Of a stretch of 64,000 nucleotides of DNA, positions 21,430-36,795 are shown in pieces (within the stretch, counting starts at the first letter, position 1; every line of letters starts with the position of its first letter). The notes under the pieces were generated by a model. That model searched no databases. It was not told the DNA's origin and saw nothing but the letters and a program-made list of their open reading frames with translations. Position numbers and translations under genes: made by a program. The stretch lies in NCBI GenBank assembly GCA_001548435.1, contig AP017308.1, positions 3,357,030 through 3,421,029 on the forward strand. Direction: 5' to 3'. The DNA is from Leptolyngbya sp. NIES-3755 (lineage in GTDB: Bacteria > Cyanobacteriota > Cyanobacteriia > Leptolyngbyales > Leptolyngbyaceae).

Positions 21430-22575
21430 CTAAGACAGCAGTGCCATTTGGGTATCGGGCGGGGTGTATCCCAGATGTTTCCAAGCGGCTGCCGTGGCGA
21501 TGCGACCACGGGGAGTACGGCTAAGATACCCGATTTGCATTAAATAGGGTTCGTAAACTTCCTCGATCGTTTGGGCATCTTCTCCGGTGGAGGCGGCAAG
21601 GGTTTCGAGTCCGACGGGTCCGCCGTTGTGTCGTTCGATCATGAAGCTCAAGAGACGGCGATCGGTCCAGTCCAAACCGCAAGGATCGACGTTGAACAGT
21701 TCGAGGGCTTCGGCGGCAATTGTTCGATCGATGTCTCGAATCGTTTTAACTTCGGCGTAATCTCGGACTCGTTTCAGCAGTCGATTCGCAATCCGAGGCG
21801 TTCCACGGGAGCGGCGTGCCACTTCTTCGGCTCCATCTGTAGTAATTCTCATCTTGAGGAGAGAAGCGGTGCGGATGACGATATTTGAGAGTTCGTCGAT
21901 CTCGTAGAAGCGGAGGCGTTGGATTAACCCGAAGCGATCGCGTAACGGAGAAGTTAATGCTCCAACTCGTGTGGTTGCGCCGACTAGCGTGAACGGTGGC
22001 AATTTCATCGATTGAATCTTCGCACTCTTACCTTTTCCGAGCGGAATATCAACGCGAAAATCTTCCATTGCAGGATAAAGCAGTTCTTCCGCCACTTTCG
22101 CTAGTCGATGGATTTCGTCAATGAAAAGAAGGTCTCCAGGTTGAAGACTAATCAGCAAGCCCATAATATCGCGAGGACGTTCTAAGGCGGGAGCGCTGGC
22201 AATTTTGCACTTCACACCCATTTCTTCAGCCAGAATCAGCGACATTGTAGTTTTGCCGAGTCCTGGAGGACCGTATAGCAATAAGTGATCGAGCGGTTCT
22301 TTACGCGACTTTGCAGCGCGGATGGCAATATCGAGAACATCTTTGAGATCCTTCTGTCCGATATATTCCATCAGCGATTGCGGACGGATTTTCTCTTCTA
22401 GCTTGCTGCGTTCTTCTGGCTCCGGTTCGGGTTGAAGAATCGTCGTCTTACATGGCGCGGATTCGCCCCCGGTTTGATTTTGGTGGACATCTTGCACCAT
22501 TAGCGACAACTCGCCAGAGGATGCGTGAGATTTATCCCGATCGTTGGGCTGTTTTTTAGATGAAATGATCGCCAT
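21430..22575 (-). CDS. ruvB: Holliday junction branch migration ATPase RuvB
   Basis: The 381-residue AAA+ helicase drives branch migration with RuvA in recombinational repair. Walker A is GPPGLGKTT (residues 102-110), Walker [11 protein letters not shown], sensor [16 protein letters not shown]. The C-terminal winged helix includes [23 protein letters not shown] and [17 protein letters not shown]. An N-terminal extension of about 55 polar residues is longer than in E. coli but usual in cyanobacteria. No ribosome site is obvious before the ATG. It is divergent from the 22609 gene. Confidence 0.97.
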
Positions 22576-22608
22576 AATTTACGAGAACAGTCATCCCTAG
22601 AGGTATCT

Positions 22609-23151
22609 ATGGAGATTCCGTCTACCTTTTCCGTCTCGGATTCGATTTCGTTTGAAGGCGCGATCGAGTTCACTCAATCACTCCTATCCGAAGTCGAACG
22701 ACATCACGTATCGGAACCTGAACTTGAACGAATCATAACCGCATTAGTACAAAGTGAGAATGGCGCAAGAGGATTTTTCGTCAGTTACTTAACCGACGAT
22801 CGCGATTTTATCGATCAGATGCAGCCGACAGTAGTACAAGCCCTGCTCAAATCTGAGGGCACAGTCGGGGACTTATTGACCAAAAATCTTGTGATGTCTA
22901 CGGCGATGATTTTGACTCATACACGCAATCAGAATTCAGAACTGGCGGCGGGTTCAGCCTTAACTAGAGAGCGAACGGATGCGATTATTCGAGCGATGCG
23001 ATCGAGCCAAGTAGATGAGCATCTGAAACGAATGAAAAGCACGATCGAGCAAGGCAGCGGGGAATATCAAAAGTTTCTCGATCGCTGGAAATATGACGCG
23101 GCACAGAAAGCCGCGATGTTAGAAGCGATCAAACACGCGCTCTTAACCTGA
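22609..23151 (+). CDS. Conserved hypothetical protein (all-helical)
   Basis: The 180-residue, acidic, soluble-looking protein has no recognised domain. Long helical stretches are visible, such as FEGAIEFTQSLLSEVERHHVSEPELERIITALVQ and AIIRAMRSSQVDEHLKRMKSTIEQG. It has no signal peptide or membrane segment. GAGGT lies a few bases before the ATG. It sits between divergent ruvB and the ABC exporter genes, 34 bases before the permease, so it could be the first gene of that transcript. I do not recognise the family. Confidence 0.7.
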   Translation: MEIPSTFSVSDSISFEGAIEFTQSLLSEVERHHVSEPELERIITALVQSENGARGFFVSYLTDDRDFIDQMQPTVVQALLKSEGTVGDLLTKNLVMSTAMILTHTRNQNSELAAGSALTRERTDAIIRAMRSSQVDEHLKRMKSTIEQGSGEYQKFLDRWKYDAAQKAAMLEAIKHALLT

Positions 23152-23185: not shown

Positions 23186-24055
23186 GTGAGAAGAGTTGTG
23201 CTGAAGCCTGTGAGAGTGACGGCGCGAAAGTTAGGAAGAGCATTGGATTGGTTGCCTGTACCACAGCATTGGCGAGTCAAACTCGATTTGCTGAAAACAT
23301 TGGTGCAGCGCGACTTAGAGGCGAAGTATAAAGGCTCAGTTTTGGGCAATGCCTGGTCAATCTTGAATCAGCTTGCACAGTTGATAGTATATACGTACTT
23401 ATTTTCGATCGTGCTTCAGGTCAAGTTGAATCTTCCTGGATTACCTGCGAACAATTTCACGTTCGGATTGTGGATGTTTGCTGGGTTAATTCCCTGGATT
23501 GCGTTCACTGCTGGGTTTAGTGGTGCGGCAACCTCAGTGATTACTCAACCGAATTTGATTAAGAAAGTCGTCTTCCCGGTCACACTGTTGCCGCTGGTTC
23601 CGATTTGTACGGCATTCGTGGAAAGTACATTTGGAATCGTGCTACTGATTGCTTTTGTCGCGTTTAGTACTCAGATTATTCATGCAACGCTGTGGTTGTT
23701 TCCGCTCGTTTGGTTGCCTCAATTATTGCTCACGGCGGGATTGGGTTACTTGGTCGCAGGATTGACTGTGTTTTTGCGCGACATTCCTCAGACGATCGCG
23801 GTTTTGTTGAATCTCTGGTTTTATGTCACCCCGATCGTGTATCCTGCCTCGTTAATCCCGGAGCAATGGCGATTTTTGGTATTTTGGCTGAATCCGATGA
23901 CGACGATCGTAGAAACCTATCGTGATCTGGCGCTCGTTGGAACGGTGCAGCATTGGCAAGAATTGGGCGTGTTGTATGGAATTTCAGTGATCGTGTTTGC
24001 GATCGGGTTTGTGGTGTATCGAAAACTGCGTCCTGCCTTTGCAGATGTCGTGTAA
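23186..24055 (+). CDS. Polysaccharide ABC transporter permease (Wzm-like, ABC-2)
   Basis: The 289-residue inner-membrane permease exports lipid-linked O-antigen or other glycans. After an N-terminal amphipathic piece comes KLDLLKTLVQRDLEAKYKGSVLGNAWSILNQL, the classic ABC-2/Wzm start, followed by about six membrane helices and a C-terminal YRKLRPAFADVV. NLWFYVTPIVYPASLIPEQWRFLVFWLNPMTTIVETYRD is the conserved C-terminal block. Start is GTG at 23186; a second GTG at 23198 is also plausible. It pairs with the ATPase gene 41 bases downstream. Confidence 0.92.
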   Translation: MRRVVLKPVRVTARKLGRALDWLPVPQHWRVKLDLLKTLVQRDLEAKYKGSVLGNAWSILNQLAQLIVYTYLFSIVLQVKLNLPGLPANNFTFGLWMFAGLIPWIAFTAGFSGAATSVITQPNLIKKVVFPVTLLPLVPICTAFVESTFGIVLLIAFVAFSTQIIHATLWLFPLVWLPQLLLTAGLGYLVAGLTVFLRDIPQTIAVLLNLWFYVTPIVYPASLIPEQWRFLVFWLNPMTTIVETYRDLALVGTVQHWQELGVLYGISVIVFAIGFVVYRKLRPAFADVV

Positions 24056-24096: not shown

Positions 24097-25350
24097 ATGG
24101 GCGAGGTCGCGATTTCCCTGAAAAATGTCTCAAAGTGCTTTAAACGATATGCGCGTCCCGTCGATCGACTCAAAGAGATTCTTTTACCTGGAAAAAGTCG
24201 AGCCGAACCCTTTTGGGCGATACAAAATATTGATTTAGACATTTTTCGTGGGGAAACGATCGGCGTTGTTGGACAAAATGGAGCCGGAAAAAGCACACTT
24301 CTACAAATCATTACTCAAACGCTCACTCCGACTAGCGGAAGTGTCCTTGTAAATGGTCGCATCTCTGCATTATTGGAGTTAGGAAGCGGATTTAATCCAG
24401 AATTTACCGGGCGACAGAACGTATTTTTTAACGGTCGAATTCTAGGATTAAGTCAAGAAGAAATCGAACAGAAATACGACAGAATTGTTGAATTTGCTGA
24501 TATTGGAGACTTCATCGATCAGCCTGTTAAAACCTATTCCAGTGGCATGTTTGTGCGGTTGGCATTTGCGGTTGCGGTCAACACTGATCCGGATATTTTG
24601 ATCGTGGATGAAGCGCTCGCGGTCGGTGATGTTTACTTTCAACAAAAGTGCTTTACTCGGCTGCGAGAAATGAAAGAATCAGGAGTCACTTTGTTGTTCG
24701 TTTCTCATGATTCGAGTGCCGTTTGTAAATTGTGCGATCGCGCTGTTTTGATGGATCATGGCAAACTTATTCTAGATTCCACCCCTCGTCACGTTGTGGA
24801 TTTGTACGAAGCGAAATTGCTGCAAAAGAAAGATTATGAACCCGATCGCGTTTCGATTACAATGACCGACGAAAAATCAGTCGCAATCACTTCCACGACG
24901 GTCAAAGCCGAATATGTACGCATGATGGATCAGAGCGATTCTATTCTTCACACCGCATTTAGTGATTCTGAAATCCAATTAGCGATCGGGCTTTTATTTT
25001 TAGAAACCGCAGACGATCCCCATATCGGATTTAAAATTCGCAATCGCACCGGAGAAGTGGTATTTGAATCGAACACCCTTTGTATGGAGCAAACGATTGG
25101 AAAACTTGAAGCGGGAACCGCGATCGAAGCGCGATTTGCCTTTAAAGTGCCATTGCCGCCTGGAGATTACACGATTACGCTCGGAGTCGCCGATGGTGGA
25201 ATTGGAAAATACGAATTTCAGCGATTATTGCTGATGCTACAGGACACGATGACCTTAAAAGTATTGCCAAATCCCGATACAATTCTTTGGGCTGGAATGG
25301 TGAATCTGTCCCCCCAGTTTGAACTTCACACTTTGCACACCACATCGTAG
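24097..25350 (+). CDS. Polysaccharide ABC transporter ATP-binding protein (Wzt-like)
   Basis: 417 residues. The nucleotide-binding domain has Walker A in VGQNGAGKSTLL, ABC signature YSSGMFVRLAFA, Walker B ILIVDEALAVGD and switch His in FVSHDSSAV. The loop ISALLELGSGFNPEFTGRQN is typical of glycan exporters. Residues about 270-410 form a Wzt-C type beta-sandwich (IGFKIRNRTGEVVFESNTL, LPPGDYTITLGVADGG), which recognises the modified end of the exported glycan in characterised O-antigen systems. AAAGGAG precedes the ATG. It energises the upstream permease. The carbohydrate-binding domain and neighbouring methyltransferases suggest export linked to a terminal modification (inference). Confidence 0.93.
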   Translation: MGEVAISLKNVSKCFKRYARPVDRLKEILLPGKSRAEPFWAIQNIDLDIFRGETIGVVGQNGAGKSTLLQIITQTLTPTSGSVLVNGRISALLELGSGFNPEFTGRQNVFFNGRILGLSQEEIEQKYDRIVEFADIGDFIDQPVKTYSSGMFVRLAFAVAVNTDPDILIVDEALAVGDVYFQQKCFTRLREMKESGVTLLFVSHDSSAVCKLCDRAVLMDHGKLILDSTPRHVVDLYEAKLLQKKDYEPDRVSITMTDEKSVAITSTTVKAEYVRMMDQSDSILHTAFSDSEIQLAIGLLFLETADDPHIGFKIRNRTGEVVFESNTLCMEQTIGKLEAGTAIEARFAFKVPLPPGDYTITLGVADGGIGKYEFQRLLLMLQDTMTLKVLPNPDTILWAGMVNLSPQFELHTLHTTS

Positions 25351-25464: not shown

Positions 25465-26292
25465 ATGCCACTTCCTTCTTTGCTACTTGAGCAGGTCAAA
25501 CCGTATACGCTTTGTACTCCCGATCGACTCGAAAATCTTGTTGCCCTCTGTGAGTATCTCAACGAAAACAACATTCAGGGCGATTTTGTCGAGTGCGGGA
25601 CGTATAAAGGCGGCTCAGCAGCAATCTTGTCGAAAGGGATGGGTGAATCGCGGCATCTTTGGCTCTATGACAGCTTTGAAGGCTTGCCCCCGACCACCGA
25701 GAAAGATGGCGAAGATGCGAAGTGGTGGATCGGGGAATGTGTGGGTACGATTCCAGACCTCAAAGCGGTAATGCAGACCGTGGGAACGAGCGAAACGGCT
25801 TATACGATCGTTCCGGGTTGGTTTGAGACCTCGTTTCAGCAGACCCTTCCCGAACAAGTCGCGCTTCTACACTGCGATGCGGATTGGTACGATTCTGTGA
25901 TGCTCGTTTTAGAGACGTTTTATCCGCGAATTGCACCGGGTGGCTGTGTGATTCTGGATGATTTCGGTTACTGGGAAGGTTGCCGGGAAGCCTTTTATGA
26001 TTTTTGTCAGCGACACGGTGAAAAGCCTGTGCTGGAGCGCATTGGACCCGATCAAGCGTTTTGGTTTAAAGGTCGATCGCATAATCGAACTGCTGTTCCT
26101 CAAGTTCATCATGTCAAAGAAAAGCGGATTGAACAGTTACAAACTGAATTGGCTGAAGCCGAAACCAAAATTGAACAGTTACTTCATCAATATCAGTCAA
26201 CGGCAGATGAATTAGAGTTTGTGAAAGCGAGTCGATTCTGGCAACTGAGAGAACGTTGGTGGGCGCTAAAACAGCAGGTCGGAGGCAAATAA
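25465..26292 (+). CDS. TylF/MycF-type O-methyltransferase with coiled-coil tail
   Basis: 275 residues. The SAM-binding fold of the macrocin O-methyltransferase family is visible: GDFVECGTYKGGSAA (residues 39-53), WLYDSFEGLP (66-75), LLHCDADWYDS (134-144) with metal-site Asp138/Asp140, and VILDDFGYWEG with Asp165-Asp166. The likely substrate is a sugar hydroxyl on a glycan. From about residue 205 the chain becomes a heptad-rich coiled coil ending in SRFWQLRERWWALK (256-269). That tail is shared with the next two cluster genes and is not part of the catalytic domain. It stands 114 bases after the Wzt gene and overlaps no gene. Confidence 0.85.
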   Translation: MPLPSLLLEQVKPYTLCTPDRLENLVALCEYLNENNIQGDFVECGTYKGGSAAILSKGMGESRHLWLYDSFEGLPPTTEKDGEDAKWWIGECVGTIPDLKAVMQTVGTSETAYTIVPGWFETSFQQTLPEQVALLHCDADWYDSVMLVLETFYPRIAPGGCVILDDFGYWEGCREAFYDFCQRHGEKPVLERIGPDQAFWFKGRSHNRTAVPQVHHVKEKRIEQLQTELAEAETKIEQLLHQYQSTADELEFVKASRFWQLRERWWALKQQVGGK

Positions 26293-26293
26293 A

Positions 26294-27328
26294 ATGCTCA
26301 GCATGATGACTGAGGAGGAGCAGAAATATCTCTATCAGTTTGCTAAAGATCACTATGTAGGCGAAGGCGCGATCGTCGATCTCGGTTGTTGGTTAGGGGC
26401 TTCTACGATCGCACTGGCGAAAGGATTACAACACAGCGATCGTACTGAGGTAAGAAACAGCAAAATTCACTCATTTGATCTGTTCAAATGGGATGCAAGT
26501 ATGGATATGTTTCTGAATGATACTTCGCTCCGATTTGCATCAGGTGAGAGTTTTTTAGAGGAATATTTGAAGCAGATTGAACCCTGGAAGGATCAGGTTC
26601 AAGTGTATGAGGGAGATTTACGAGATTTTCCCTGGCAAGGTGGCGCGATCGAGTTTTTGTTTATCGACGCGATGAAATCCTGGGAGTTGACCACGAGTAT
26701 TATTCGGCAGTATTTTGGTTCGTTGATTCCGGGACGCTCGATCGTATATCACCAAGATTATTCGTTTTACGGCACGTTCTGGATTCATCTCAGCATGTAT
26801 CGACTGAGGGACTATTTTGAACCGATTTATGATGTACCGAATGCTTGGGGCTATGTGTTTCGTTTAAAGAAAGCCATTCCTGCCTCTTTGCTATCCGCAA
26901 CTTATGCACTCGAAGACTATTCTATAGATGAAATTGAGCAAGCTTTTGAAGCTGCTTATCAGATTGTTTCATTCGAGAAGAAATCTCAAATTGTGGGTGC
27001 GAAAATCTTAGTGTTGATGACGCTTAATGAGACAGAACGAGCGCGATTAGAATTAGAAAAGGCGACCGCGAATCAGTTATCAGTTGCAGACCTACAGATT
27101 CCACTCGGTTTAAGTTTCCCGTTTCTAATCATGCAACATTGCATGCAGCGAATTATTACGAGTGAGACACAGCTACATCAAAACTACCAATACTTTCAAA
27201 CAGAATTGGCTCAAGCAAGTCAAGAAATTCAATCGCTCAATGCGAAAATCTCAGCGATGGAAAGCAGCAAGTTTTGGCAACTCCGAAAACAATGGTTCAA
27301 ACTCAAGCGAAAAATGAGCTTGAACTGA
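26294..27328 (+). CDS. Class I SAM-dependent methyltransferase-like protein with coiled-coil tail
   Basis: 344 residues. YVGEGAIVDLGCWLGASTIALAKGL is the SAM-binding loop, SFDLFKWD the second acidic strand, and IEFLFIDAMKSWELT with GRSIVYHQDYSF the later strands; GxGxG is replaced by GCWLGAS. The family is like that of predicted sugar O-methyltransferases. The C-terminal third is helical and ends SKFWQLRKQWFKLK (325-338), matching the tails of its two neighbours. GGAGG lies at 26280, inside the previous gene's last codons, with one base between the genes. Met1, Met4 or Met5 could be the start. Confidence 0.72.
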   Translation: MLSMMTEEEQKYLYQFAKDHYVGEGAIVDLGCWLGASTIALAKGLQHSDRTEVRNSKIHSFDLFKWDASMDMFLNDTSLRFASGESFLEEYLKQIEPWKDQVQVYEGDLRDFPWQGGAIEFLFIDAMKSWELTTSIIRQYFGSLIPGRSIVYHQDYSFYGTFWIHLSMYRLRDYFEPIYDVPNAWGYVFRLKKAIPASLLSATYALEDYSIDEIEQAFEAAYQIVSFEKKSQIVGAKILVLMTLNETERARLELEKATANQLSVADLQIPLGLSFPFLIMQHCMQRIITSETQLHQNYQYFQTELAQASQEIQSLNAKISAMESSKFWQLRKQWFKLKRKMSLN

Positions 27329-27360
27329 GAAATCGTTTCTGAACAGTAACTCTATTTAGA

Positions 27361-28710
27361 ATGTCTGAAAGAATCTTTTGCACTGTTATTACAAAAAACT
27401 ACCTGGCGTATGCTCGAACACTCGCCGAAACATTGAGTGAGCATCACTCGGACAGTAAACTTTATGTGTTGATTGTCGATCGTATCGAGGAGTATTTCCA
27501 ACCCGAAGCGGAGCTGTTCGAGGTGATCCGATTTGAGGATTTGCCCGATCAAAAGACGATCGAACAAATGTGTTTCTACTACACTCCTTTAGAGTTGTGC
27601 TGTGCGCTTCGAGGAATGTTGCATGAATACATTGTTGAACACACCAACGCTGAAAGCTGGATTTTTCTAGATTGCGACATTATGGTTTGTAGCTCTCTAG
27701 AACCGTTGTTTGAAGCTTTATCTGAAACCTCAATTTTATTAACACCGCATTGTAGTGTTCCACTTCCTGTAAAAGATGCGGAACATGAATTAAATATCCT
27801 CATGCACGGATTAAGTAATGCTGGATTTCTCGGATTGAGAAGAACAGAACAAACTCGCGAATTTCTAGCTTGGTGGAAAGACAGATTAAAATACTATTGC
27901 TTTCTAGATTCTGCGCTTGGAGATCCGCGAGGATTGAGCGTCGATCAACGTTGGCTTAATCTTGTTTTTCTATATTTTCCTGATTTTAAGTTCGTAAAAC
28001 ATCCGGGTGCAAATATTGGTCACTGGAATTTTTATGAGCGAAAATTTCAGTATGGAGCAGAAGGCAAAATTCTTGTAAATGGGCAGCCAGTTCTCTTCCT
28101 TCACTTTAGTGGGTGGGATATTGATAACCCCGATTACGTTTCAAAGCATAGCCCACTTTATCAAGAGAAAGATACGTCGCCTTGGACAGAATTCGCAAGG
28201 AGCTATCGAGAGAAATTGTTGAAGAATGGCTATGAGGAAACAAAACAATTTCCTTACACTTTTGCGACCTTTCATGATCGAACTCCGATCACTCAAGTCA
28301 TGAGACGGGGCTATTATGACGAACTAAAACAAGGAACTGCGATCGCGAATTCACCCTTCGATCAGCCTGAGCATTTTCGTTCTAAAAGATACTCGCTGAA
28401 TTCAACTCATTTTCTACAAGAGGAAGTCCGAATTGCCTACGAGCAAGTGATCCAACTTCAGCAAGAGAAGCATCATATCTACCTCACGCTTGAACAAGCT
28501 CAAACGACTCTCGAACAAAAAGAAGCCACACTTCAGCAACTTCAAACCGCCCTTGTAGAAGTTCAACAGAATGCAGAAAAGGAGCGAACTCGATCGAGAC
28601 AAATCATCGAAACAATGGAGAACAGTATTTTTTGGAAAATGAGAGATGCTTGGTGGAGAATCAAACGAAAATTGGGTCAAGCTGAAGTGAAATTGATAGA
28701 AAAAGAATGA
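27361..28710 (+). CDS. Glycosyltransferase (GT-A fold, GT8-like) with coiled-coil tail
   Basis: 449 residues. The N-terminal domain resembles nucleotide-diphospho-sugar transferases: FCTVITKNYLAYARTLAETLSEHH, then the D-x-D metal motif in IFLDCDIMV (Asp104, Asp106), NAGFLGLRRTEQTREFLAWW, SVDQRWLNLVFLYF and NIGHWNFYERKF. The HFSGWD motif near residue 250 is typical of this group. Sugar and acceptor are unknown. A coiled coil (about 345-415) leads to SIFWKMRDAWWRIK (422-435). Its last four bases overlap the next gene's start (ATGA), so translation is coupled. Confidence 0.82.
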   Translation: MSERIFCTVITKNYLAYARTLAETLSEHHSDSKLYVLIVDRIEEYFQPEAELFEVIRFEDLPDQKTIEQMCFYYTPLELCCALRGMLHEYIVEHTNAESWIFLDCDIMVCSSLEPLFEALSETSILLTPHCSVPLPVKDAEHELNILMHGLSNAGFLGLRRTEQTREFLAWWKDRLKYYCFLDSALGDPRGLSVDQRWLNLVFLYFPDFKFVKHPGANIGHWNFYERKFQYGAEGKILVNGQPVLFLHFSGWDIDNPDYVSKHSPLYQEKDTSPWTEFARSYREKLLKNGYEETKQFPYTFATFHDRTPITQVMRRGYYDELKQGTAIANSPFDQPEHFRSKRYSLNSTHFLQEEVRIAYEQVIQLQQEKHHIYLTLEQAQTTLEQKEATLQQLQTALVEVQQNAEKERTRSRQIIETMENSIFWKMRDAWWRIKRKLGQAEVKLIEKE

Positions 28711-29138
28711 AGATGGATAACACCGAACAAACGAGAGTAAATATTGACACTTTGATTGAGAAAATCCGTCAGGAAGCTGCTAGGAAACAAACCGTCACTC
28801 GCTATCAGCCACCGACAAATTTAGATGCCGCAAATCGAATTCGATCAAACAATATTGAAGCGCTTTTAAATGCGGCTCAAACTAAATCTCAAATTAGAAC
28901 AGATTTGCCAGCAAAGTTACAGCGATTTCCTTGGACTGTGGGAGGAAGCTTCGGCAAAATTGCACTCAAACTCTACAGCTTTCTCTTCAAGGAACAAAGA
29001 GCAGTCAATTTTTCATTGATTCAAGCGAACAGAGAAACCCTATTACTGAATCAAAACCTCTTGAAGAAAGTGGCTGAATTGCAGGCAGAAATTAGTGATT
29101 TGCAGACGAGAATTGATGCGCTAGAGAATGAGGAATGA
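28707..29138 (+). CDS. Small coiled-coil protein of the glycan cluster
   Basis: 143 residues, no enzyme motif. The N-terminus NIDTLIEKIRQEAARKQ is followed by a Pro/Asn linker, then an aromatic patch RFPWTVGGSFGKIALKLYSFLFKEQ that could lie on a membrane, and a C-terminal heptad region NQNLLKKVAELQAEISDLQTRIDALENEE. It starts in an ATGA overlap with the glycosyltransferase and ends just before the next glycosyltransferase. It may tether or organise the enzymes through their coiled coils (inference). I do not recognise a named family. Confidence 0.65.
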   Translation: MKMDNTEQTRVNIDTLIEKIRQEAARKQTVTRYQPPTNLDAANRIRSNNIEALLNAAQTKSQIRTDLPAKLQRFPWTVGGSFGKIALKLYSFLFKEQRAVNFSLIQANRETLLLNQNLLKKVAELQAEISDLQTRIDALENEE

Positions 29139-29142
29139 GCGC

Positions 29143-30183
29143 ATGAGAATTGCGATCGCAACGGTTCAAGTTCCATTTATCAGAGGAGGAGCCGAAATTC
29201 TAGCGGATGGACTGCTCCGCGCCATTCAAGAAGCAGGACATTCGGCAGAACTGATTGCGATGCCGTTTCGATTTTCGCCTGTGTCAGAGATTCAGCGGAG
29301 TATGCAGCTTTGGGCATCCGAAAATTTTGAAAACCTGAATGGCTATCAATGCGATCGCGTAATTTGTCTAAAGTTTCCAGCATTCTATTTGCAGCATTCA
29401 AATAAAGTGGGCTGGATTTTGCACCAACATCGATCCGTTTACGATTTGTGGAATACCGAATTTACGACGGAATTTTCTCGAAGCGCAGAAGGCAAGCAGT
29501 TAAAGTTAGAAATTACTGAGCAAGATACAAAAGCACTGAGTACATTTCGTGGGATTTATACGATCGCGAAAAACGTCTCAAAACGATTACAGCAATTCAA
29601 TCAAATTGATTCAATCCCGCTTTATCATCCTCCAGAATTTGCAGAAGCGTTTTACACCAAACCTGCTGAACCATATATTTTCTTTCCAAGTCGTTTAGAA
29701 ACGCTGAAACGACAGGATTTACTGATTCAAGCGATGCGATTTGTACGATCGCCAATGGTCGCTTTACTCGGTGGAGAAGGGGGACAGCAACCGTATCTTG
29801 AGAGTCTGATTGAACAACACGGATTACAGCAAAAAGTTCGCTTACTTGGACGATTAACCGATACCGAAAAATTGAGCTTTTACGCACATTGCTTGGGCGT
29901 TTTCTTCGCGCCCTACAATGAAGATTATGGATATGTGACGCTTGAAGCAATGCTTTCTCGCAAACCTGTGATTACTTGCATAGATGCGGGTGAGCCAGTG
30001 GAATTTGTGGTGAACGGGCAAACAGGTTGGATTGTTGAACCAGAGCCGAAAGCGATCGCAGAAAAAATCGATCAGTTATATGACCAGCAAGCGATCGCGA
30101 AAGAAATGGGAGTCGCGGGACACGATCGTTATCACGCGCTCGATATTTCTTGGAGTAATGTGGTGCAGAAGTTGATACATTAA
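29143..30183 (+). CDS. Glycosyltransferase family 4
   Basis: About 346 residues from ATG 29143, which has GAGGA eight bases upstream; the frame opens five codons earlier inside the previous gene. GT-B fold: N-terminal MRIAIATVQVPFIRGGAEIL with the donor-domain glycine motif, then YIFFPSRLETLKRQDLLIQAM, LLGGEGGQQPYLESL, and the nucleotide-sugar binding block APYNEDYGYVTLEAMLSRKPVITCIDAGEPVEFV. This retaining GT4 adds a sugar at the cytosolic face. Its closest relative in the window is the first half of the 31269 protein, with GGAE, KxPG/FP, LHQHR.xYDL and PYNEDYG in the same order. Confidence 0.87.
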   Translation: MRIAIATVQVPFIRGGAEILADGLLRAIQEAGHSAELIAMPFRFSPVSEIQRSMQLWASENFENLNGYQCDRVICLKFPAFYLQHSNKVGWILHQHRSVYDLWNTEFTTEFSRSAEGKQLKLEITEQDTKALSTFRGIYTIAKNVSKRLQQFNQIDSIPLYHPPEFAEAFYTKPAEPYIFFPSRLETLKRQDLLIQAMRFVRSPMVALLGGEGGQQPYLESLIEQHGLQQKVRLLGRLTDTEKLSFYAHCLGVFFAPYNEDYGYVTLEAMLSRKPVITCIDAGEPVEFVVNGQTGWIVEPEPKAIAEKIDQLYDQQAIAKEMGVAGHDRYHALDISWSNVVQKLIH

Positions 30184-30292
30184 TCGAAAATGAGATCAAT
30201 CAGGCTGTAATCGATACAATGCACATGACACTCGATCGAGTAATGTGTGCAAAAGGTATTAGGATGATGAAACTTGTGTGTGGAGAGAGTCC

Positions 30293-31222
30293 ATGATTTC
30301 TCTGAAAGGTTTGCTGAACTCGTTTCGATCGAGTAGTCGAAAACAGTCTGAAGAAAGCGCAACTTCTTATATTTATCGCCCTGATGTTCCTCAAATCGAC
30401 TTTGCCGCAGGAGTCGAACATCTCAGACGCAGTGGACGATCGGTGGTTGAACATGGAGTTGAAAACACGCGCCCGGAAGCTGTCGCAAATGTGATCGAAT
30501 TAGGCAAACAAATCGGCATTGAATTCAAAGAATTCTCGATCGATGTTAACCTCTATAAACAGTATTTCAATCAGGCAGAATACGCGAAACGTTATGCAGA
30601 GTACTATCGCGGAAATCAACCTGAAAAAACGTTAGAACATTTTATTTGCTATTCATTACTGGGGCTGAATTCGGACGATGTTTTTGTCGATTTAGCCAGC
30701 GAACATTCTCCAGTTCCAGAGATTTTCGGGCGCTTATCTGGGGCGACAACTTACAGTCAAGATATTATGTACCCGGCTGGAATCGAAGGAAATCGTATCG
30801 GTGGTGATGCTTGTGCAATGCCTGTTTCCGATGGATTTATGTCAAAGGCAGCGTTAACTTGCTCGCTCGAACATTTTGAACTAGATGCAGATACTCGCTT
30901 GTTTCAAGAATTAGCAAGAGTGCTGAAACCGGGTGGAAAAATTTGCGTCGTTCCGTTTTATGTCTTCGATCGAGAAGCAGTTCAGACTGATCCAACGGTG
31001 AGCGTTCCTGCTAACGTTCCCTTTGATTCAACTGCGACGATTTACTGCGCTCCAGGTTGGGGAAATCGGCATGGACGATTCTACAGTCCTCAATCGTTTA
31101 TGCAGCGAATTATTTGCCCGGTTCAAAATCAATTTAAATTTGAGTTCTTTCACTTAAAAAATGCAGCCGAAGTTGATTCTTCAGTCTATGCTCGATTTGC
31201 TTTCACAGCGACTCGTCTTTAG
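30293..31222 (+). CDS. Class I SAM-dependent methyltransferase-like protein
   Basis: About 309 residues from ATG 30293; GGAGAG lies six bases upstream, whereas the GTG at 30278 has none. The first 100 residues are unassigned (region YKQYFNQAEYAKRYAEYYRG). The methyltransferase core follows: LNSDDVFVDLASEHSPVPEIFG in place of the usual G-x-G-x-G loop, GGDACAMPVSDGFMSKAALTCSLEHFELDADTRLFQELARVLKPGGKICVVP, the last being the typical motif of small-molecule methyltransferases. The SAM loop is atypical, so activity is not certain. Within the glycan cluster it may modify a sugar. Confidence 0.7.
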   Translation: MISLKGLLNSFRSSSRKQSEESATSYIYRPDVPQIDFAAGVEHLRRSGRSVVEHGVENTRPEAVANVIELGKQIGIEFKEFSIDVNLYKQYFNQAEYAKRYAEYYRGNQPEKTLEHFICYSLLGLNSDDVFVDLASEHSPVPEIFGRLSGATTYSQDIMYPAGIEGNRIGGDACAMPVSDGFMSKAALTCSLEHFELDADTRLFQELARVLKPGGKICVVPFYVFDREAVQTDPTVSVPANVPFDSTATIYCAPGWGNRHGRFYSPQSFMQRIICPVQNQFKFEFFHLKNAAEVDSSVYARFAFTATRL

Positions 31223-31268: not shown

Positions 31269-33644
31269 ATGCAAATTGCGATCGTTGCGCCTAGTCCTGT
31301 TCCCTTTTGTATTGGTGGAGCCGAAAAGCTTTGGTGGGGTTTACAGGAAGAAATCAATCAGAATACGCCACATCAAGCTGAGTTAATTAAGCTGCCCACT
31401 CCTGAGCGAAATTTTGCAGATTTGATTCGGAGTTATCGACAGTTTTCAGAGTTAGATCTGAACCATTTTGATTTAGTGATTTCTGGTAAATATCCAGGCT
31501 GGATGGTCGATCATCCGAATCATATTTGCTATATGTTGCATCGGTTACGGGGGCTTTACGATACTTACCACTTCACGGGTTTACCAGAGCAATTCAATAC
31601 AAATCAGACCGAAATTCAAAGACTTCAAAAGCAGTTTAAGCAGGGTAAACGCAGCAATTTGACTGAAGTTTTTGATCAGCTTGAGAAACTTCGATCGAGA
31701 CAAAAATTATCAGAGGAAGTCACGCAGCTTCCGGGTGCTTTCGCGAGAGAAATAATTCATTATTTTGACGGGATTGGGTTAGATTCTAGAGCGATTAGAA
31801 AGTATGCTGCAATCTCGCACAACGTGGCAAATCGTCAAAATTATTTCCCGCAAGGAAGCTCGATCGATGTCATTTATCCGCCTTCAAGTTTGAGACAATT
31901 CGAGCAGGGCGAAAGCGAATATTTCTTCACGATTAGTCGCTTAGACAGTGCGAAAAGAGTTCGATTACTGGTTGAGGCAATGCAATTTGTGAAATCAAAG
32001 GTGCAGCTAAAAATTGCTGGAACTGGACCGGATGAAGCACAATTGAAAGAATTAGCAGGGGAGGACGATCGCATTGAATTTCTCGGATTTGTAAACGATG
32101 AAGACGCGATTCAACTGTATGCCAATGCGATCGCAGTTCCGTATCTGCCTTATGACGAAGATTATGGTCTCGTTGTCATCGAAGCGATGATGAGTGGAAA
32201 GCCTGTTTTGACGACGATCGACTCCGGTGGACCCAATGAGTTTGTGATCAACGGCGAGACTGGATATTCTGTTTCACCTGAACCCGCTGCTTTGGCTGAA
32301 CGGCTGGATTACTTCTATCAGCATCGTGCGGAAGTGAGGCAGATGGGACTTGCAGGACGGAAACTGGTTGAAACAATTACTTGGGAAAATACGGTCGCTC
32401 GATTATTAAGTGAACCGCCAACAAAACCAATGGTAAATGGAATTCGGAAACGTCAAAAAATTACGATCGCAGTCACATTTTCAGTTTTTCCTCCTCGTGG
32501 TGGTGGACAAAGCCGAGTCTTTCATCTGTACAAGCATTTAGCGAAGTATTTCGATATCGAATTTGTCTCAATTACTGGAGTTGATCAAGTTCCTTTTGAA
32601 GGCGAAATTGCTGAGAATGTCCGCGAAATTCGGATTCCAAAATCGCCAAAACATCAGCAGCAAGAACAGGAGATTGAGAAAGAGGTTCGAGTTCCAATTA
32701 CAGATGTTGTCATGCCAGAGTTAGTTTGGTTAACTCCCGAATATCTTGAAGCATTGAAAACTTCGATCGAGTCTTCAGATATTGTGATTGCTTGCCATCC
32801 TTATTTGTATCCGGCAATTCGATCAATCACAGATAAACCACTTTGGTACGAGGCACAAGATGTCGAAATTGATTTGAAATCAAAGATTCTTCCCGATAAT
32901 TCAACCAGTCGAAAAATTCTAGATTCAATTAGAAAAGTAGAAGTCGAGTGTTGTGATGCGAGTCGATTAATCATGACTTGTTCACAGAATGATGCTGATT
33001 TGTTAAACAAGATTTACGGCATTGATCTGAAGAAAGCGATCGAAGTTCCAAATGGAGTCGATACGGAAGCGATTCAATATATTTCTCAGGAAAAGCGTCG
33101 ATCGGCAAAAATCAAACTTGGTTTAGAAAATAGTTTTACGGCTTTCTTTTTAGGCAGTTGGCATGAGCCAAACTTGAAAGCGGTTGAATCGATTTTGAAA
33201 ATGGCAGATGCGCTCCCTAATGTCCATTTCCTCGTGGTTGGAAGCGTTGGCTGGGCTTTTCAAGATAAGAAACATCCGACCAATGTAGGATTTATGGGCG
33301 AAGTCGATGAGGACACGAAATCGATCGTCTTAGAAATTGCGGATGTGGCGTTGAATCCTGTGACATTTGGTTCTGGAACAAACTTAAAGATGTTAGAGTA
33401 TTTCGCGGCAGGCATTCCGGTGATTTCGACTCCTGCGGGAATTCGAGGACTGGGTGTGGAACACGGCAAGCATTGTATCGTCGCAGAAGTGGAGCAATTT
33501 GGAGATGCGATCGACGAACTGCGATCGGAGACTTCAGAGGCACAACTGGCGCGAATCGAAGCTGCGAAAGATCTCGTTCAACGGACTTACGATTGGCGAG
33601 TCATTGCGGAGCGATTTATGAGTGCAGTGGCAGCTTTCGAGTAA
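31269..33644 (+). CDS. Two-domain glycosyltransferase (GT4-GT4 fusion)
   Basis: 791 residues with two complete GT-B units. Unit 1 (about 1-375) begins MQIAIVAPSPVPFCIGGAEKL and ends with YLPYDEDYGLVVIEAMMSGKPVLTTIDSGGPNEFVINGETG. Unit 2 (about 393-791) starts KITIAVTFSVFPPRGGGQSRVFHLYKHL and contains FLGSWHEPNLKAVESILKMADALPNVHFLVVGS and GSGTNLKMLEYFAAGIPVISTPAGIRGL. The two units differ in sequence, so this is a fusion of different GT4s, and unit 1 resembles the 29143 gene product. Such fusions can add two consecutive linkages. No internal stop or frameshift is seen. Confidence 0.88.
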   Translation: MQIAIVAPSPVPFCIGGAEKLWWGLQEEINQNTPHQAELIKLPTPERNFADLIRSYRQFSELDLNHFDLVISGKYPGWMVDHPNHICYMLHRLRGLYDTYHFTGLPEQFNTNQTEIQRLQKQFKQGKRSNLTEVFDQLEKLRSRQKLSEEVTQLPGAFAREIIHYFDGIGLDSRAIRKYAAISHNVANRQNYFPQGSSIDVIYPPSSLRQFEQGESEYFFTISRLDSAKRVRLLVEAMQFVKSKVQLKIAGTGPDEAQLKELAGEDDRIEFLGFVNDEDAIQLYANAIAVPYLPYDEDYGLVVIEAMMSGKPVLTTIDSGGPNEFVINGETGYSVSPEPAALAERLDYFYQHRAEVRQMGLAGRKLVETITWENTVARLLSEPPTKPMVNGIRKRQKITIAVTFSVFPPRGGGQSRVFHLYKHLAKYFDIEFVSITGVDQVPFEGEIAENVREIRIPKSPKHQQQEQEIEKEVRVPITDVVMPELVWLTPEYLEALKTSIESSDIVIACHPYLYPAIRSITDKPLWYEAQDVEIDLKSKILPDNSTSRKILDSIRKVEVECCDASRLIMTCSQNDADLLNKIYGIDLKKAIEVPNGVDTEAIQYISQEKRRSAKIKLGLENSFTAFFLGSWHEPNLKAVESILKMADALPNVHFLVVGSVGWAFQDKKHPTNVGFMGEVDEDTKSIVLEIADVALNPVTFGSGTNLKMLEYFAAGIPVISTPAGIRGLGVEHGKHCIVAEVEQFGDAIDELRSETSEAQLARIEAAKDLVQRTYDWRVIAERFMSAVAAFE

Positions 33645-33659
33645 ATTTCATCTGACAAA

Positions 33660-34628
33660 TTGATTGTGAAAAAAGCACTGATTACCGGACTGACTGGACA
33701 AGACGGATCGTATCTGGCAGAACTCTTGTTAGAACAGGGCTACCACGTCTTTGGATTGGTGCGGCGATCGAGTTCGGGAAATGTCGATCGGGTTCGTCAT
33801 TTATCTGGAACGGTCGAGATTTTGTCTGGTGATTTGCTCGATCAATGTTCGCTGATGGATGCGGTTTCGTATGCTCAACCCGACGAAATCTATAATTTGG
33901 CATCTCAAAGTTATGTGCCGCTTTCTTGGACGCAACCTGCTCTGACGGCAGAATATACAGCATTGGGCGTGTCGCGATTATTAGAATCAATTCGTCGCTG
34001 TAAATCTGATGCGCGATTTTACCAAGCTTCGAGTAGTGAAGTGTTCGGGCAGCCTGATGAGTCGCCTCAAACTGAACGGACTGCTTTTCGACCTCGAAAT
34101 CCTTATGGAGTGGCGAAAGCGTATGCTCATTGGATGACGATTAACTACCGGCAACAGTATGGGTTGTATAGCTGTTGCGGGGTGACTTATACGCACGAAT
34201 CTCCGCGTCGTGGAACTGAGTTTGTGTTCCGCAAAATTACTCGCGGTGCAGCGATGATCAAGATGGGATTAGCAAAGGAATTAAAGCTGGGAAATCTGGA
34301 CGCAAAACGTGATTGGTGTTATGCCAAAGATGCAGTCCGAGCGATGTGGATGATGTTGCAACAAGAGCAACCAGACGATTACATTATTGCCAGCGGTGAA
34401 ACGCATTCGGTGCGTGAATTAGTCCAGGCTGCGTTTGATTGCGTGGGTTTGAATTGGGAAGAATTTGTTTCAGTTGATCCGAGCTTTTATCGACCCGATG
34501 AAGAAGTGCAATTAGTGGGGTCGATCGACAAAATTCGCAAACAGTTGAATTGGGAACCAGAGTATTCTTTCAAACAATTGGTTGAACTCATGGTCGATCA
34601 TGATTTGAAGGAATTATCTCAATCATGA
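33660..34628 (+). CDS. GDP-mannose 4,6-dehydratase-like SDR enzyme
   Basis: 322 residues of the extended SDR family. The NAD(P) motif is TGLTGQDGSYLAELLLEQGYHVFGLVRRSS, catalytic YGVAK (Tyr/Lys) preceded by the S-S-E-V-F-G triad region SSSEVFGQPDESPQTERTAFRPRNPYG, and the C-terminal DPSFYRPDEEVQLVGS with RDWCYAKDAVRAMWMML. The closest known function is dehydration of GDP-mannose to GDP-4-keto-6-deoxymannose, a precursor of fucose, rhamnose or perosamine. No GDP-fucose synthase is in the window. Start TTG at 33660 or GTG at 33666; a cytosolic enzyme supplying sugar nucleotide to the cluster. Confidence 0.85.
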   Translation: MIVKKALITGLTGQDGSYLAELLLEQGYHVFGLVRRSSSGNVDRVRHLSGTVEILSGDLLDQCSLMDAVSYAQPDEIYNLASQSYVPLSWTQPALTAEYTALGVSRLLESIRRCKSDARFYQASSSEVFGQPDESPQTERTAFRPRNPYGVAKAYAHWMTINYRQQYGLYSCCGVTYTHESPRRGTEFVFRKITRGAAMIKMGLAKELKLGNLDAKRDWCYAKDAVRAMWMMLQQEQPDDYIIASGETHSVRELVQAAFDCVGLNWEEFVSVDPSFYRPDEEVQLVGSIDKIRKQLNWEPEYSFKQLVELMVDHDLKELSQS

Positions 34629-35740
34629 AAATCGCGATCGATGTAACGCCTTGGATGCCAAAACCTAGCGGAATTGGGCTTTACGTGTCGAATCTTATTC
34701 AAGGTTTAACCGAGTTACAGTCGCACGAATCGTTTGAGTTAGAGTTAATTTATCAGCCTGGATTAAAGAATTGGTTGAAAAGGAACCTTGCATTTCCAGA
34801 GTACTTAAGGCAGTATTCTAATTTGCATTTATTTCCGTTTCCGGTGCGAGTTTCAAATTTATTTCTTGAAGCTCCGTCGCTATTTTCTGGGCAGTTTGAG
34901 CGATTTTCTCAAAATCCTGATATTGTGCATGGAACAAATTATACGGTTTTCCCAGTTCGGAAAAGTCGTCGAGTTATGACCATTTACGATATTAGTTTCA
35001 TCAAATATCCTGAATATTCAAATTCGACTGTTAAAGCTTATACAAATCGATTAAAAAAATGTCTTGAATGGACGGATTTAGTTCTAACCATTTCACACAG
35101 TTCTAAACAAGATATCGTCGAATATTTGGGAGTTGATCCGAGTCGAATCTGTGTGACACATTTGGCAAGTCGCTATCAAGTTCGTGAAACGTCAGAATCT
35201 TCAAAGCCTTATATCTTGTTTGTGAGTACGATCGAGCCTCGAAAAAATCTCAAATCCTTAATTTCCGCATTCGAGTATCTGAAAAGAAACTATCAGATTG
35301 AACATGATCTAATTTTGATCGGGCAAAAAGGCTGGTTGTATGAGCCGATTTTTGAACAAATTGCTCGATCGGCATTTCAATCCTCAATTCGTCATCTTAG
35401 TTATCTTCCAGACGAGCAAGTTGCCCAGTTTTACCAAGAAGCGGATGTCTTTGTTTATCCCTCGCACTATGAAGGTTTTGGGATGCCTGTACTAGAAGCG
35501 ATGACTTTGGGTGCACCCGTTGTTACAAGTAATAGTTCATCGCTGCCAGAAGTTGCGGGAGATGCGGCAATTTTAGTAGACCCAAATAATATTGAACAAT
35601 TAGCGGAATCGATTTTGCGAGTGATTCGCGATCGACCCTTTCGCAATTCGCTGATTCAAAAAGGCACAGAACAGGCTAAATTGTTCTCTTGGGAAAAGAC
35701 TGCAAAAGAAACCTTAAACGCTTATCGATCGATTCTGTGA
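34625..35740 (+). CDS. Glycosyltransferase family 4
   Basis: 371 residues. N-terminal MKIAIDVTPWMPKPSGIGLYVSNLIQGL matches GT4 mannosyl/rhamnosyl transferases, and the donor domain shows YILFVSTIEPRKNLKSLISAFEYL, ADVFVYPSHYEGFGMPVLEAMTLGAPVVTSNSSSLPEVAGDAAILVDP. The E-x7-E motif (EGFGMPVLE) is intact, so it should be active. The ATG overlaps the stop of the dehydratase gene by four bases (ATGA). It is likely to consume the sugar nucleotide from that enzyme (inference from order). Confidence 0.9.
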   Translation: MKIAIDVTPWMPKPSGIGLYVSNLIQGLTELQSHESFELELIYQPGLKNWLKRNLAFPEYLRQYSNLHLFPFPVRVSNLFLEAPSLFSGQFERFSQNPDIVHGTNYTVFPVRKSRRVMTIYDISFIKYPEYSNSTVKAYTNRLKKCLEWTDLVLTISHSSKQDIVEYLGVDPSRICVTHLASRYQVRETSESSKPYILFVSTIEPRKNLKSLISAFEYLKRNYQIEHDLILIGQKGWLYEPIFEQIARSAFQSSIRHLSYLPDEQVAQFYQEADVFVYPSHYEGFGMPVLEAMTLGAPVVTSNSSSLPEVAGDAAILVDPNNIEQLAESILRVIRDRPFRNSLIQKGTEQAKLFSWEKTAKETLNAYRSIL

Positions 35741-36795
35741 TATTAGTCAATCTCGCCTTTCTAGCCTCAAAACCAACTGGGCACACAGTCTACGCAAAAA
35801 ATCTTTTGCCTGGTTTAGCTTCATTAAATCCTGTGTTGCTCACCGGACAAAGTTTTTCTGATTATCAGTGTTATAAAATTTCAGATCAATTGACTCCAGA
35901 TCAAGGCACAAAGGGACACTTTAATCGCCTGAAATGGACACAATTTAGGTTGCCTAAAATCTATAGAGAGCTTGAAAGTAATCTAATCTTCTCACCAATT
36001 CCTGAAGCTCCAATTTTTACTAAATGTCGCTATATTGTGACACTACATGATTTTATTCCGCTTAGATTTCCGCGTTTCAAATCGCCTTTAACGCAGTATT
36101 ACAGACATTATATTCCTCATGTTCTAAATCAAGCTCAGCATATTTTGTGCGACTCGGAATCAACTGCGAATGATGCGATCGCGTTCTACAAAATTCCATC
36201 CAATAAAATCACCGTCGTTCCGCTCGCCTACGACAATCAGCATTTCAAATTCCTCGATTTGCCAACCTCGAATTATTTTCTCTATGTTGGCAGACACGAT
36301 GCTTATAAAAATATTGGTCGATTGCTAACTGCCTTTTCCCAACTTCCAAATGATTATGAATTTTGGATTGCAGGTTCTCCAGATCCGCGATTTACACCGA
36401 GTCTGAAAACCCAAGCTGAAGCATTAGGAATTGTCGATCGAGTTAAATTTCTCAGTTATGTTTCTTATGCAGAATTACCAGAATTAATGAATCGAGCGAT
36501 CGCCCTTGTTTTCCCTAGTTTATGGGAAGGTTTTGGCTTACCCGTTCTCGAAGCAATGGCATGTGGAACTCCCGTCATTACCTCGAATCTTTCATCGATT
36601 CCTGAAGTTGCGGGCGATGCGACGTTATTCGTTGATCCTTACGATGAAAGTGCGATCGCAAATTCTATGAAATCGATCGTTACTAATAGCCAACTGCGCC
36701 AACAATTGAGACAAAAAGGACTCGATCGAGCTTCACAATTCAGTTGGCAAAAAACCGCATCTCAAACCGCTGAAATTCTTAAACAACACTCGTAA
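35737..36795 (+). CDS. Glycosyltransferase family 4
   Basis: About 352 residues. I use the GTG at 35737, which overlaps the previous stop (GTGA); the frame is open further back to 35689 but that lies inside the upstream gene. The N-terminus MILVNLAFLASKPTGHTVYAKNLLPGL fits a GT4 start. Donor site: YFLYVGRHDAYKNIGRLLTAFSQL, ALVFPSLWEGFGLPVLEAMACGTPVITSNLSSIPEVAGDATLFVDP, with intact EGFGLPVLE. It is the last gene of the plus-strand run and is immediately convergent with the EamA-type gene. Confidence 0.9.
   Translation: MILVNLAFLASKPTGHTVYAKNLLPGLASLNPVLLTGQSFSDYQCYKISDQLTPDQGTKGHFNRLKWTQFRLPKIYRELESNLIFSPIPEAPIFTKCRYIVTLHDFIPLRFPRFKSPLTQYYRHYIPHVLNQAQHILCDSESTANDAIAFYKIPSNKITVVPLAYDNQHFKFLDLPTSNYFLYVGRHDAYKNIGRLLTAFSQLPNDYEFWIAGSPDPRFTPSLKTQAEALGIVDRVKFLSYVSYAELPELMNRAIALVFPSLWEGFGLPVLEAMACGTPVITSNLSSIPEVAGDATLFVDPYDESAIANSMKSIVTNSQLRQQLRQKGLDRASQFSWQKTASQTAEILKQHS

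Follow-up and report, generated by a model that had tools for sequence, protein, structure and literature searches.

The closest known parallel to the system considered here is the O-antigen chain terminator WbdD of Escherichia coli O8/O9a, which consists of a methyltransferase (O8) or a kinase-methyltransferase (O9a), a coiled coil and a C-terminal part responsible for membrane binding and polymerase recruitment (PMC3482155, PMC3447403, PMC11231755, PMC6286764). According to excerpts of these reports, an amphipathic helix at the C-terminus places WbdD at the membrane, a C-terminal region recruits WbdA (PMC3447403, PMC11231755, PMC3482155), and the coil sets the chain length (PMC6286764). A Klebsiella study mentions coiled-coil methyltransferase orthologues in cyanobacteria (PMC11231755), and an excerpt of a phylum-wide study of cyanobacterial export genes states that the identification of glycosyltransferases was not attempted (PMC4594306). 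This study concerns a 64,000-nucleotide stretch of the genome of the cyanobacterium Leptolyngbya sp. NIES-3755 (the window), in which three consecutive gene products end in a coiled coil followed by the motif S-x-F-W-x-[LM]-R-x-x-W-[WF]-x-[LI]-K, here called the tail. Our results strongly support the view that this tail is a transferable module found on surface-glycan enzymes of cyanobacteria. The three enzymes of the window probably build a bacterial surface sugar. A full-text literature search with cyanobacterial or proteobacterial spellings of the motif, in a collection that excludes most subscription journals, returned no paper.

Three consecutive enzymes with a common tail

The three tails reported in the original prediction all lie in frame, as SRFWQLRERWWALK at 26230-26271, SKFWQLRKQWFKLK at 27266-27307 and SIFWKMRDAWWRIK at 28624-28665, on the forward strand. 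The ten-residue core of the motif is followed by 10, 10 and 18 residues, in proteins of 275, 344 and 449 amino acids, respectively. Searched against the 6.76 Mb host genome, a 30-column profile of the tail finds the same three places, with expectation values (E) of 2.5e-9, 1e-13 and 2.1e-12, and no further match below E 1, the next standing at E 1.3. The back-translated pattern has exactly three matches in the window against 0.00 in shuffled versions of it (n=100), and an estimate from composition, for which amino-acid frequencies were entered by hand, predicts about 4e-6 matches per proteome. A chance origin of the tails is excluded by the window shuffles, the whole-genome profile search and the reversed-pattern control described below.

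The first carrier (25465-26292, forward strand, as are all the features that follow unless noted) is a TylF-type methyltransferase, with Pfam matches to TylF (2.3e-35) and Methyltransf_24 (3e-12). Its coiled-coil spacer occupies 26104-26229. The second (26294-27328) is a Methyltransf_24-like methyltransferase, matching that family at 1.2e-5 and 26.6 bits, just over the cut-off of 26.3; its spacer, delimited by eye and by alignment, spans 27143-27265. The third (27361-28710) resembles glycosyltransferases of family GT8. It has a weak Pfam match to Glyco_transf_8 (0.026), and its D104-x-D106 motif is invariant among the four sequences compared. Foldseek matches of its low-confidence model to glycogenin, LgtC and GlyE (E 3e-6 to 2e-5, with low TM-scores of about 0.3 by query length) support the GT8-like assignment at the level of predicted structure. 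The spacer of this protein lies at 28366-28620.

The three enzymes had been described as unrelated in fold. This stands for the GT8-like enzyme when set against the methyltransferases, but not for the methyltransferases themselves, which share a broad fold because both match Methyltransf_24; the window alone therefore shows two folds rather than three. In the AlphaFold2 model of the TylF protein (mean predicted local distance difference test score, pLDDT, 79.9), a single helix covering residues 214-272 continues through the tail without a break. The model of the GT8-like protein, of low confidence (mean pLDDT 58), has a helix at 336-420, a two-residue break and a separate tail helix at 423-448. 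The idea of a kink between coil and tail is weakened, since the second model shows one and the first does not. None of the three enzymes has a PADLOC match, and a reading as a defence system was dropped; NCBIfam supplies no name for the four proteins of the window that were compared with it.

Carriers and distribution of the tail

Counted from the match listing, a search of 292 cyanobacterial genomes with the motif, position 2 being left free (Ser is numbered 1), located 83 places in 51 genomes, against 10 for the reversed pattern. Outside the window, 77 of 80 places were studied, as 60 loci, those in G165, G050 and G038 being left out. The motif falls within an open reading frame (ORF) in 56 of the 60 loci, the exceptions being L045, L058, L060 and L083. 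Two or more tails occur in 19 of the 60, and by pattern one tail only is found in 37 of the 56 loci that have any. With the profile, the tail is detected in 33 of 42 genomes of the window's own order.

The enzymes that carry the tail are diverse. A Pfam tally of 82 of the 85 carriers (L050, L051 and L061 were omitted for size, and multidomain proteins count more than once) gives GT2 28 times, GT4-type 26, Methyltransf_11 24, Sulfotransfer_3 11, FkbM 5 and Methyltransf_24 3, among others. Carriers checked singly include GT2 enzymes (L074, L039, L053), GT4 enzymes (L040, L052), sulfotransferases (L041, L086, L088) and methyltransferases (L054, L071, L082, L044, L261), and the GT8-like carriers cluster with the GT8-like protein of the window. 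These families span the GT-A, GT-B, Rossmann methyltransferase and P-loop sulfotransferase folds. The proposal of a transferable module is well supported by this range, which runs from GT2, GT4 and GT8-like enzymes through several methyltransferase families to sulfotransferases. Restriction of the tail to one enzyme family was checked as an outcome that would have refuted that proposal, and is excluded by the tally and by the single checks.

The tail usually ends its protein. Outside the window it occurs 83 times: the core is followed by 8-22 residues in 64 cases and by 63 in one, and the other 18 tails are internal; in L084:5839-6987 the tail stands on the N-terminal side of a Methyltransf_24 homologue. 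A protein of 1042 residues (L074:5962-9090) has a C-terminal pair of tails separated by 50 residues. Two small ORFs, L070:6879-7499 (206 residues) and L077:5731-6072 (113 residues), encode little besides coil and tail; their products might compete for the same site or serve as adaptors to it, unless the ORFs are gene fragments.

The conserved segment extends over about 25 residues, I-x-A-M-E-[ST]-S-K-F-W-K-L-R-x-x-W-F-x-L-K, at the end of the coiled coil. Since the search patterns fix the motif positions by construction, conservation is quoted for free positions: in the 83 pattern-found tails, K2 is kept in 98%, M-2 in 89%, A-3 in 80% and K/R14 in 99%, and positions 8, 9, 12, 15 and 16 vary. 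An alignment of 80 rows was chosen by motif expression, and its invariant F, W and R are likewise given by construction. In 33 tails from loci found by profile, S1 is kept in 94%, K2 in 85% and W10 in 91%. The tail bears a mean net charge of +5.3 over 17 residues (identical tails were kept once in the analyses of conservation, charge, hydrophobic moment, periodicity and locus likeness). The segments upstream show a 3.5-residue periodicity at p<0.05 in 59% of cases (n=255).

In a search of bacteria and archaea, one genome per species, 115 of 118 stretches among the matches listed are cyanobacterial. The other three (L155, L173, L208) fall outside real genes, L155 in a frame of 68 residues and the others in none; one cyanobacterial stretch (L185) also lies outside any ORF. 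A search of the phylum of L155 with the tail profile, without a positive control there, gave no match in 95 genomes, though the same profile finds the tail in the window's order as given above. Among the matches listed, the tail in this spelling is restricted to cyanobacteria. Viral contigs gave a single pattern match (L213), outside any ORF. With tail 2 as query, plasmids yielded one Nostoc match and one Deinococcus match at E 7 on an ATPase, the latter taken as chance. A Nostoc plasmid segment (L290:2078-8090) encodes an ABC (ATP-binding cassette) transporter pair, a sulfotransferase and a tailed glycosyltransferase, which places the module on plasmids as well.

The surrounding polysaccharide locus

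The window carries a polysaccharide cluster, and the three tailed genes lie just downstream of an O-antigen-type ABC transporter. Its Wzm-like ABC-2 permease for polysaccharide export (23186-24055; Pfam ABC2_membrane 2.1e-21) is further marked by the linkage of its close homologues to tails, and its Wzt-like ATPase (24097-25350; ABC_tran 8.6e-24) has a C-terminal Wzt_C domain (1e-20). Downstream of the tailed genes and the small coiled-coil ORF are a GT4 glycosyltransferase (29128-30183; Glycos_transf_1 2.4e-26), a Methyltransf_11 protein (30278-31222), a two-module GT4 glycosyltransferase (31269-33644, forward; two stretches of Glyco_trans_1_4), a GDP-mannose 4,6-dehydratase (33660-34628) and two further GT4 proteins (34625-36795). 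The dehydratase, together with the GT4 genes, suggests a deoxyhexose, for example rhamnose or fucose, in the glycan. Directly upstream of Wzm (21430-23151) are a RuvB gene on the minus strand and a protein of 180 residues lacking a Pfam match; ORFs that begin like these two also precede Wzm in the relatives L249 and L261. The gene order Wzm, Wzt, tailed TylF and tailed GT8-like protein is kept in L249, L250, L257 and L261, and homologues of Wzm, Wzt_C and TylF occur together in L249, L250, L252, L257, L259 and L261.

A Wzm homologue is present in 28 of the 60 tail loci. Linkage was quantified in 30 tail genomes hand-picked from the 51, a close Wzm being defined by E below 1e-90. One close Wzm occurs in 21 of the 30, and in all but one of these (20 of 21; the exception is G286) a tail is located no more than 10 kb away, where chance would give roughly 0.2 of 21. 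Across 42 genomes of the window's order, 18 have both a tail and a close Wzm, 6 have Wzm only, 15 a tail only and 3 neither. Where both exist the linkage is strong, and tails also serve loci without this transporter; a strict dependence on Wzm is ruled out by tails that occur without it.

The small coiled-coil protein without a tail (28707-29138), directly after the three enzymes, exists as had been reported, and its ORF overlaps the next GT4 ORF by 11 bases. It had been put forward as a binding partner of the tail. It is encoded in 10 of the 42 genomes of the window's order, 6 with tails and 4 without, and is missing from 27 of the 33 tail genomes; with no co-occurrence with tails, the suggested partnership is not supported, and an obligate one was rejected. 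Homologues stand alone in several species, and in three loci they are joined to a methyltransferase domain within a longer protein (466 residues in L278, 507 in L276 and 824 in L275). From these sequences the protein looks like a stand-alone copy of a second coiled-coil module shared by glycan enzymes, one that precedes methyltransferase domains in relatives, and not like a dedicated receptor of the tail. A short front motif, V-D-x-L-M, is common to this protein and to GT4 proteins of L249 (498 residues) and L250 (497 residues), and BLAST finds no match between it and either GT4 protein. The possibility that it is the split-off front of the next GT4 was rejected on that negative result and on the position of the true longer homologues, before methyltransferase domains.

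Possible function of the tail and comparison with known systems

Docking or membrane association of the tail is plausible by its likeness to WbdD (PMC3447403, PMC11231755) and to PglH (PMC5792488), so far as the excerpts of these studies describe them. We slightly favour an explanation in which the whole acts as a transferable targeting module: the coil would serve for oligomerization and spacing, and the tail would meet a universal partner on the side of the membrane on which lipid-linked glycans are assembled, as a membrane or lipid-carrier anchor comparable to the C-terminus of WbdD. The partner, one for all loci, may be the membrane itself, the lipid-phosphate carrier or a conserved protein, and any enzyme that gains a tail would join the assembly site. 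For the window, this would mean that the glycan is acted on, or capped, by the GT8-like enzyme and both methyltransferases before Wzt_C recognizes it and Wzm/Wzt exports it. A bearing on the partner comes from comparing tails at their variable positions, after the removal from this comparison of some L249-L268 tails also present in the L095-L212 set. Tails of unrelated enzymes in the same locus are 41.5% identical (41 pairs) and those from different loci 41.6% (3901 pairs; p 0.51 by label shuffling). A locus-specific docking code, of which there is no signal, was rejected; the partner is therefore common to all loci, or absent.

Several observations weigh against targeting to the membrane-bound assembly site. 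Taken as one helix, the tail has a hydrophobic moment not above that of composition shuffles (mean z 0.10, n=261), so that a textbook amphipathic helix is not supported by this measure. Generic membrane binding would not call for residues as nearly invariant as these, and 41% of the 255 upstream segments show no significant heptad periodicity. The Methyltransf_24 homologue L126:3639-5240 carries no tail, which indicates that the tail is not always needed. Tails occur in 18 of 24 genomes with Wzm and in 15 of 18 without, that is, with no association at the genome level, and the tail is therefore not specific to ABC-transporter loci; in genomes with both, they lie within 10 kb of each other in 15 of 18 and farther apart in 3.

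An alternative, which we regard as unlikely, is that the tail caps the coiled coil as a tail-tail zipper, joining different enzymes into mixed oligomers, and so into one complex, without membrane contact. On a helical wheel drawn by hand, a heptad stripe is made up of F3, L6, W10, L13 and L17, and a ridge of aromatic and basic residues (W4, R7, F11, K14) might allow cation-pi contacts between helices. The straight helix through the tail in the TylF model fits such a cap, as do the 19 of 60 loci with two or more tails and the doubly tailed L074 protein. Most loci, however, have one tail only by pattern (37 of 56), some tails lie internally between domains, and the packing of like tails into a tight bundle is disfavoured by their net charge of about +5 over 17 residues. 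In the model of the GT8-like protein, two residues interrupt the helix before the tail, which forms a helix of its own. The near-invariance of S-K-F-W-x-L-R-x-x-W across different folds looks like recognition, and together with the strong gene linkage to Wzm it favours a different account, in which the tail is a short linear motif docking to one conserved receptor, be it Wzm/Wzt, the initiating phosphoglycosyltransferase or another phylum-wide factor. We consider this quite improbable: a close Wzm is missing from many tail genomes (15 of 33 in the window's order), and among the candidates searched, Wzm and the 28707 protein, no receptor gene was found, the latter failing to co-occur with tails.

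Coil and tail might also be no more than recombination-prone spacer DNA with a weak structural role, spread by the shuffling of glycan genes. The N-terminal and internal tails that follow apparent gene fusions, such as that before the methyltransferase in L084:5839-6987, would fit this history, as would the tail-less L126 homologue. We give it very little credence, for some residues are near-invariant throughout the phylum beside the freely varying positions 8, 9, 12, 15 and 16, a contrast that speaks for selection and not drift. A bolder form of the targeting explanation, which we offer only tentatively and hold to be doubtful, is that a single phylum-wide tag, S-K-F-W-K-L-R-x-x-W-F, is read by one receptor or by the polyprenyl-phosphate carrier, with Proteobacteria using the same scheme in another spelling. 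If true, glycosyl-, methyl- and sulfotransferases of any fold would be recruited to one membrane site by acquisition of the tail.

The tail may provide a sequence handle on the gathering of anchor-less enzymes around a lipid-linked glycan. It could mark surface-glycan enzymes among cyanobacterial proteins without assigned roles, and it could serve to direct selected sugar-modifying enzymes to the site of assembly.

Proteobacteria possess a tail type of the form S-R-S-W-R-L-T-A-P-L-R, and this spelling was looked for. A counterpart, [ST]-x-S-W-[RK]-[LIVM]-T-x-P-[LMV]-R, was found. The typed consensus retrieved 26 plasmid records at weak E values of 0.2 to 10, and two retrieved examples, used as queries, gave 27 and 36, mostly weak. 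From these records 15 loci were chosen for varied annotation, so that proportions among them mean little: the carriers are 6 methyltransferases, 3 glycosyltransferases, 4 sulfotransferases, a DUF1698 protein and a rhamnan synthesis F protein. The motif follows a coil-like stretch, judged by eye, and the carrier gene comes directly after an ABC transporter ATPase gene in 6 of the 15. In an E. coli O8 locus on an IncC plasmid, the methyltransferase encoded after the annotated wzm-wzt (L289:1598-2875) is, by this position, presumably WbdD of O8; its coil-like stretch leads into S-R-S-W-R-I-T-Q-P-L-R, and the protein continues for about 107 residues beyond the motif. The proteobacterial tail differs from the cyanobacterial one in having Thr and Pro-Leu-Arg in place of Arg and Trp-Phe. 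A profile alignment that includes the coil end puts S-x-x-W-[KR]-L of the two in register, at E 0.0017 and a probability of 15%. Without the coil end, the score does not exceed that of shuffled columns, being reached by 45 of 200 shuffles. In the phylum of L155 (57 genomes), the SWRLT pattern matches 3 times and its control 2 times, counts too close to tell the two apart. The proteobacterial and cyanobacterial tails have a similar architecture and setting; sequence evidence for their homology is suggestive only.

Among membrane-associated elements of glycosyltransferases, the ruler helix of PglH from Campylobacter, which contains Phe and Lys/Arg, serves both to anchor the enzyme at the membrane and to bind lipid pyrophosphate, according to an excerpt of its description (PMC5792488). 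Unlike the tail, it is part of a GT-B fold, has no coil and is not a transferable C-terminal element. The hydrophobic loop and basic amphipathic helix of PimA/LpxB-type GT-B enzymes likewise associate with the membrane through a segment rich in Trp and basic residues (PMC6286764), but lie within the N-terminal catalytic domain of one fold and are not shared across folds. WbdD remains the nearest parallel. The Wzm/Wzt_C neighbourhood typical of WbdD-type terminators is found in the window, and the order of an N-terminal methyltransferase and then a coiled coil is seen in the TylF and Methyltransf_24 proteins, not in the GT8-like carrier. With regard to a membrane-associated amphipathic C-terminal helix of the WbdD type, the tail is basic and aromatic (mean net charge about +5), but its hydrophobic moment is not above shuffles. 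Here, unlike in WbdD, the module is shared by three adjacent enzymes, among them a GT8-like one, and the tail ends the protein. If the targeting explanation is correct, the WbdD idea, described in these sources for enterobacterial O-antigens, would extend to a whole phylum and to glycosyl- and sulfotransferases.

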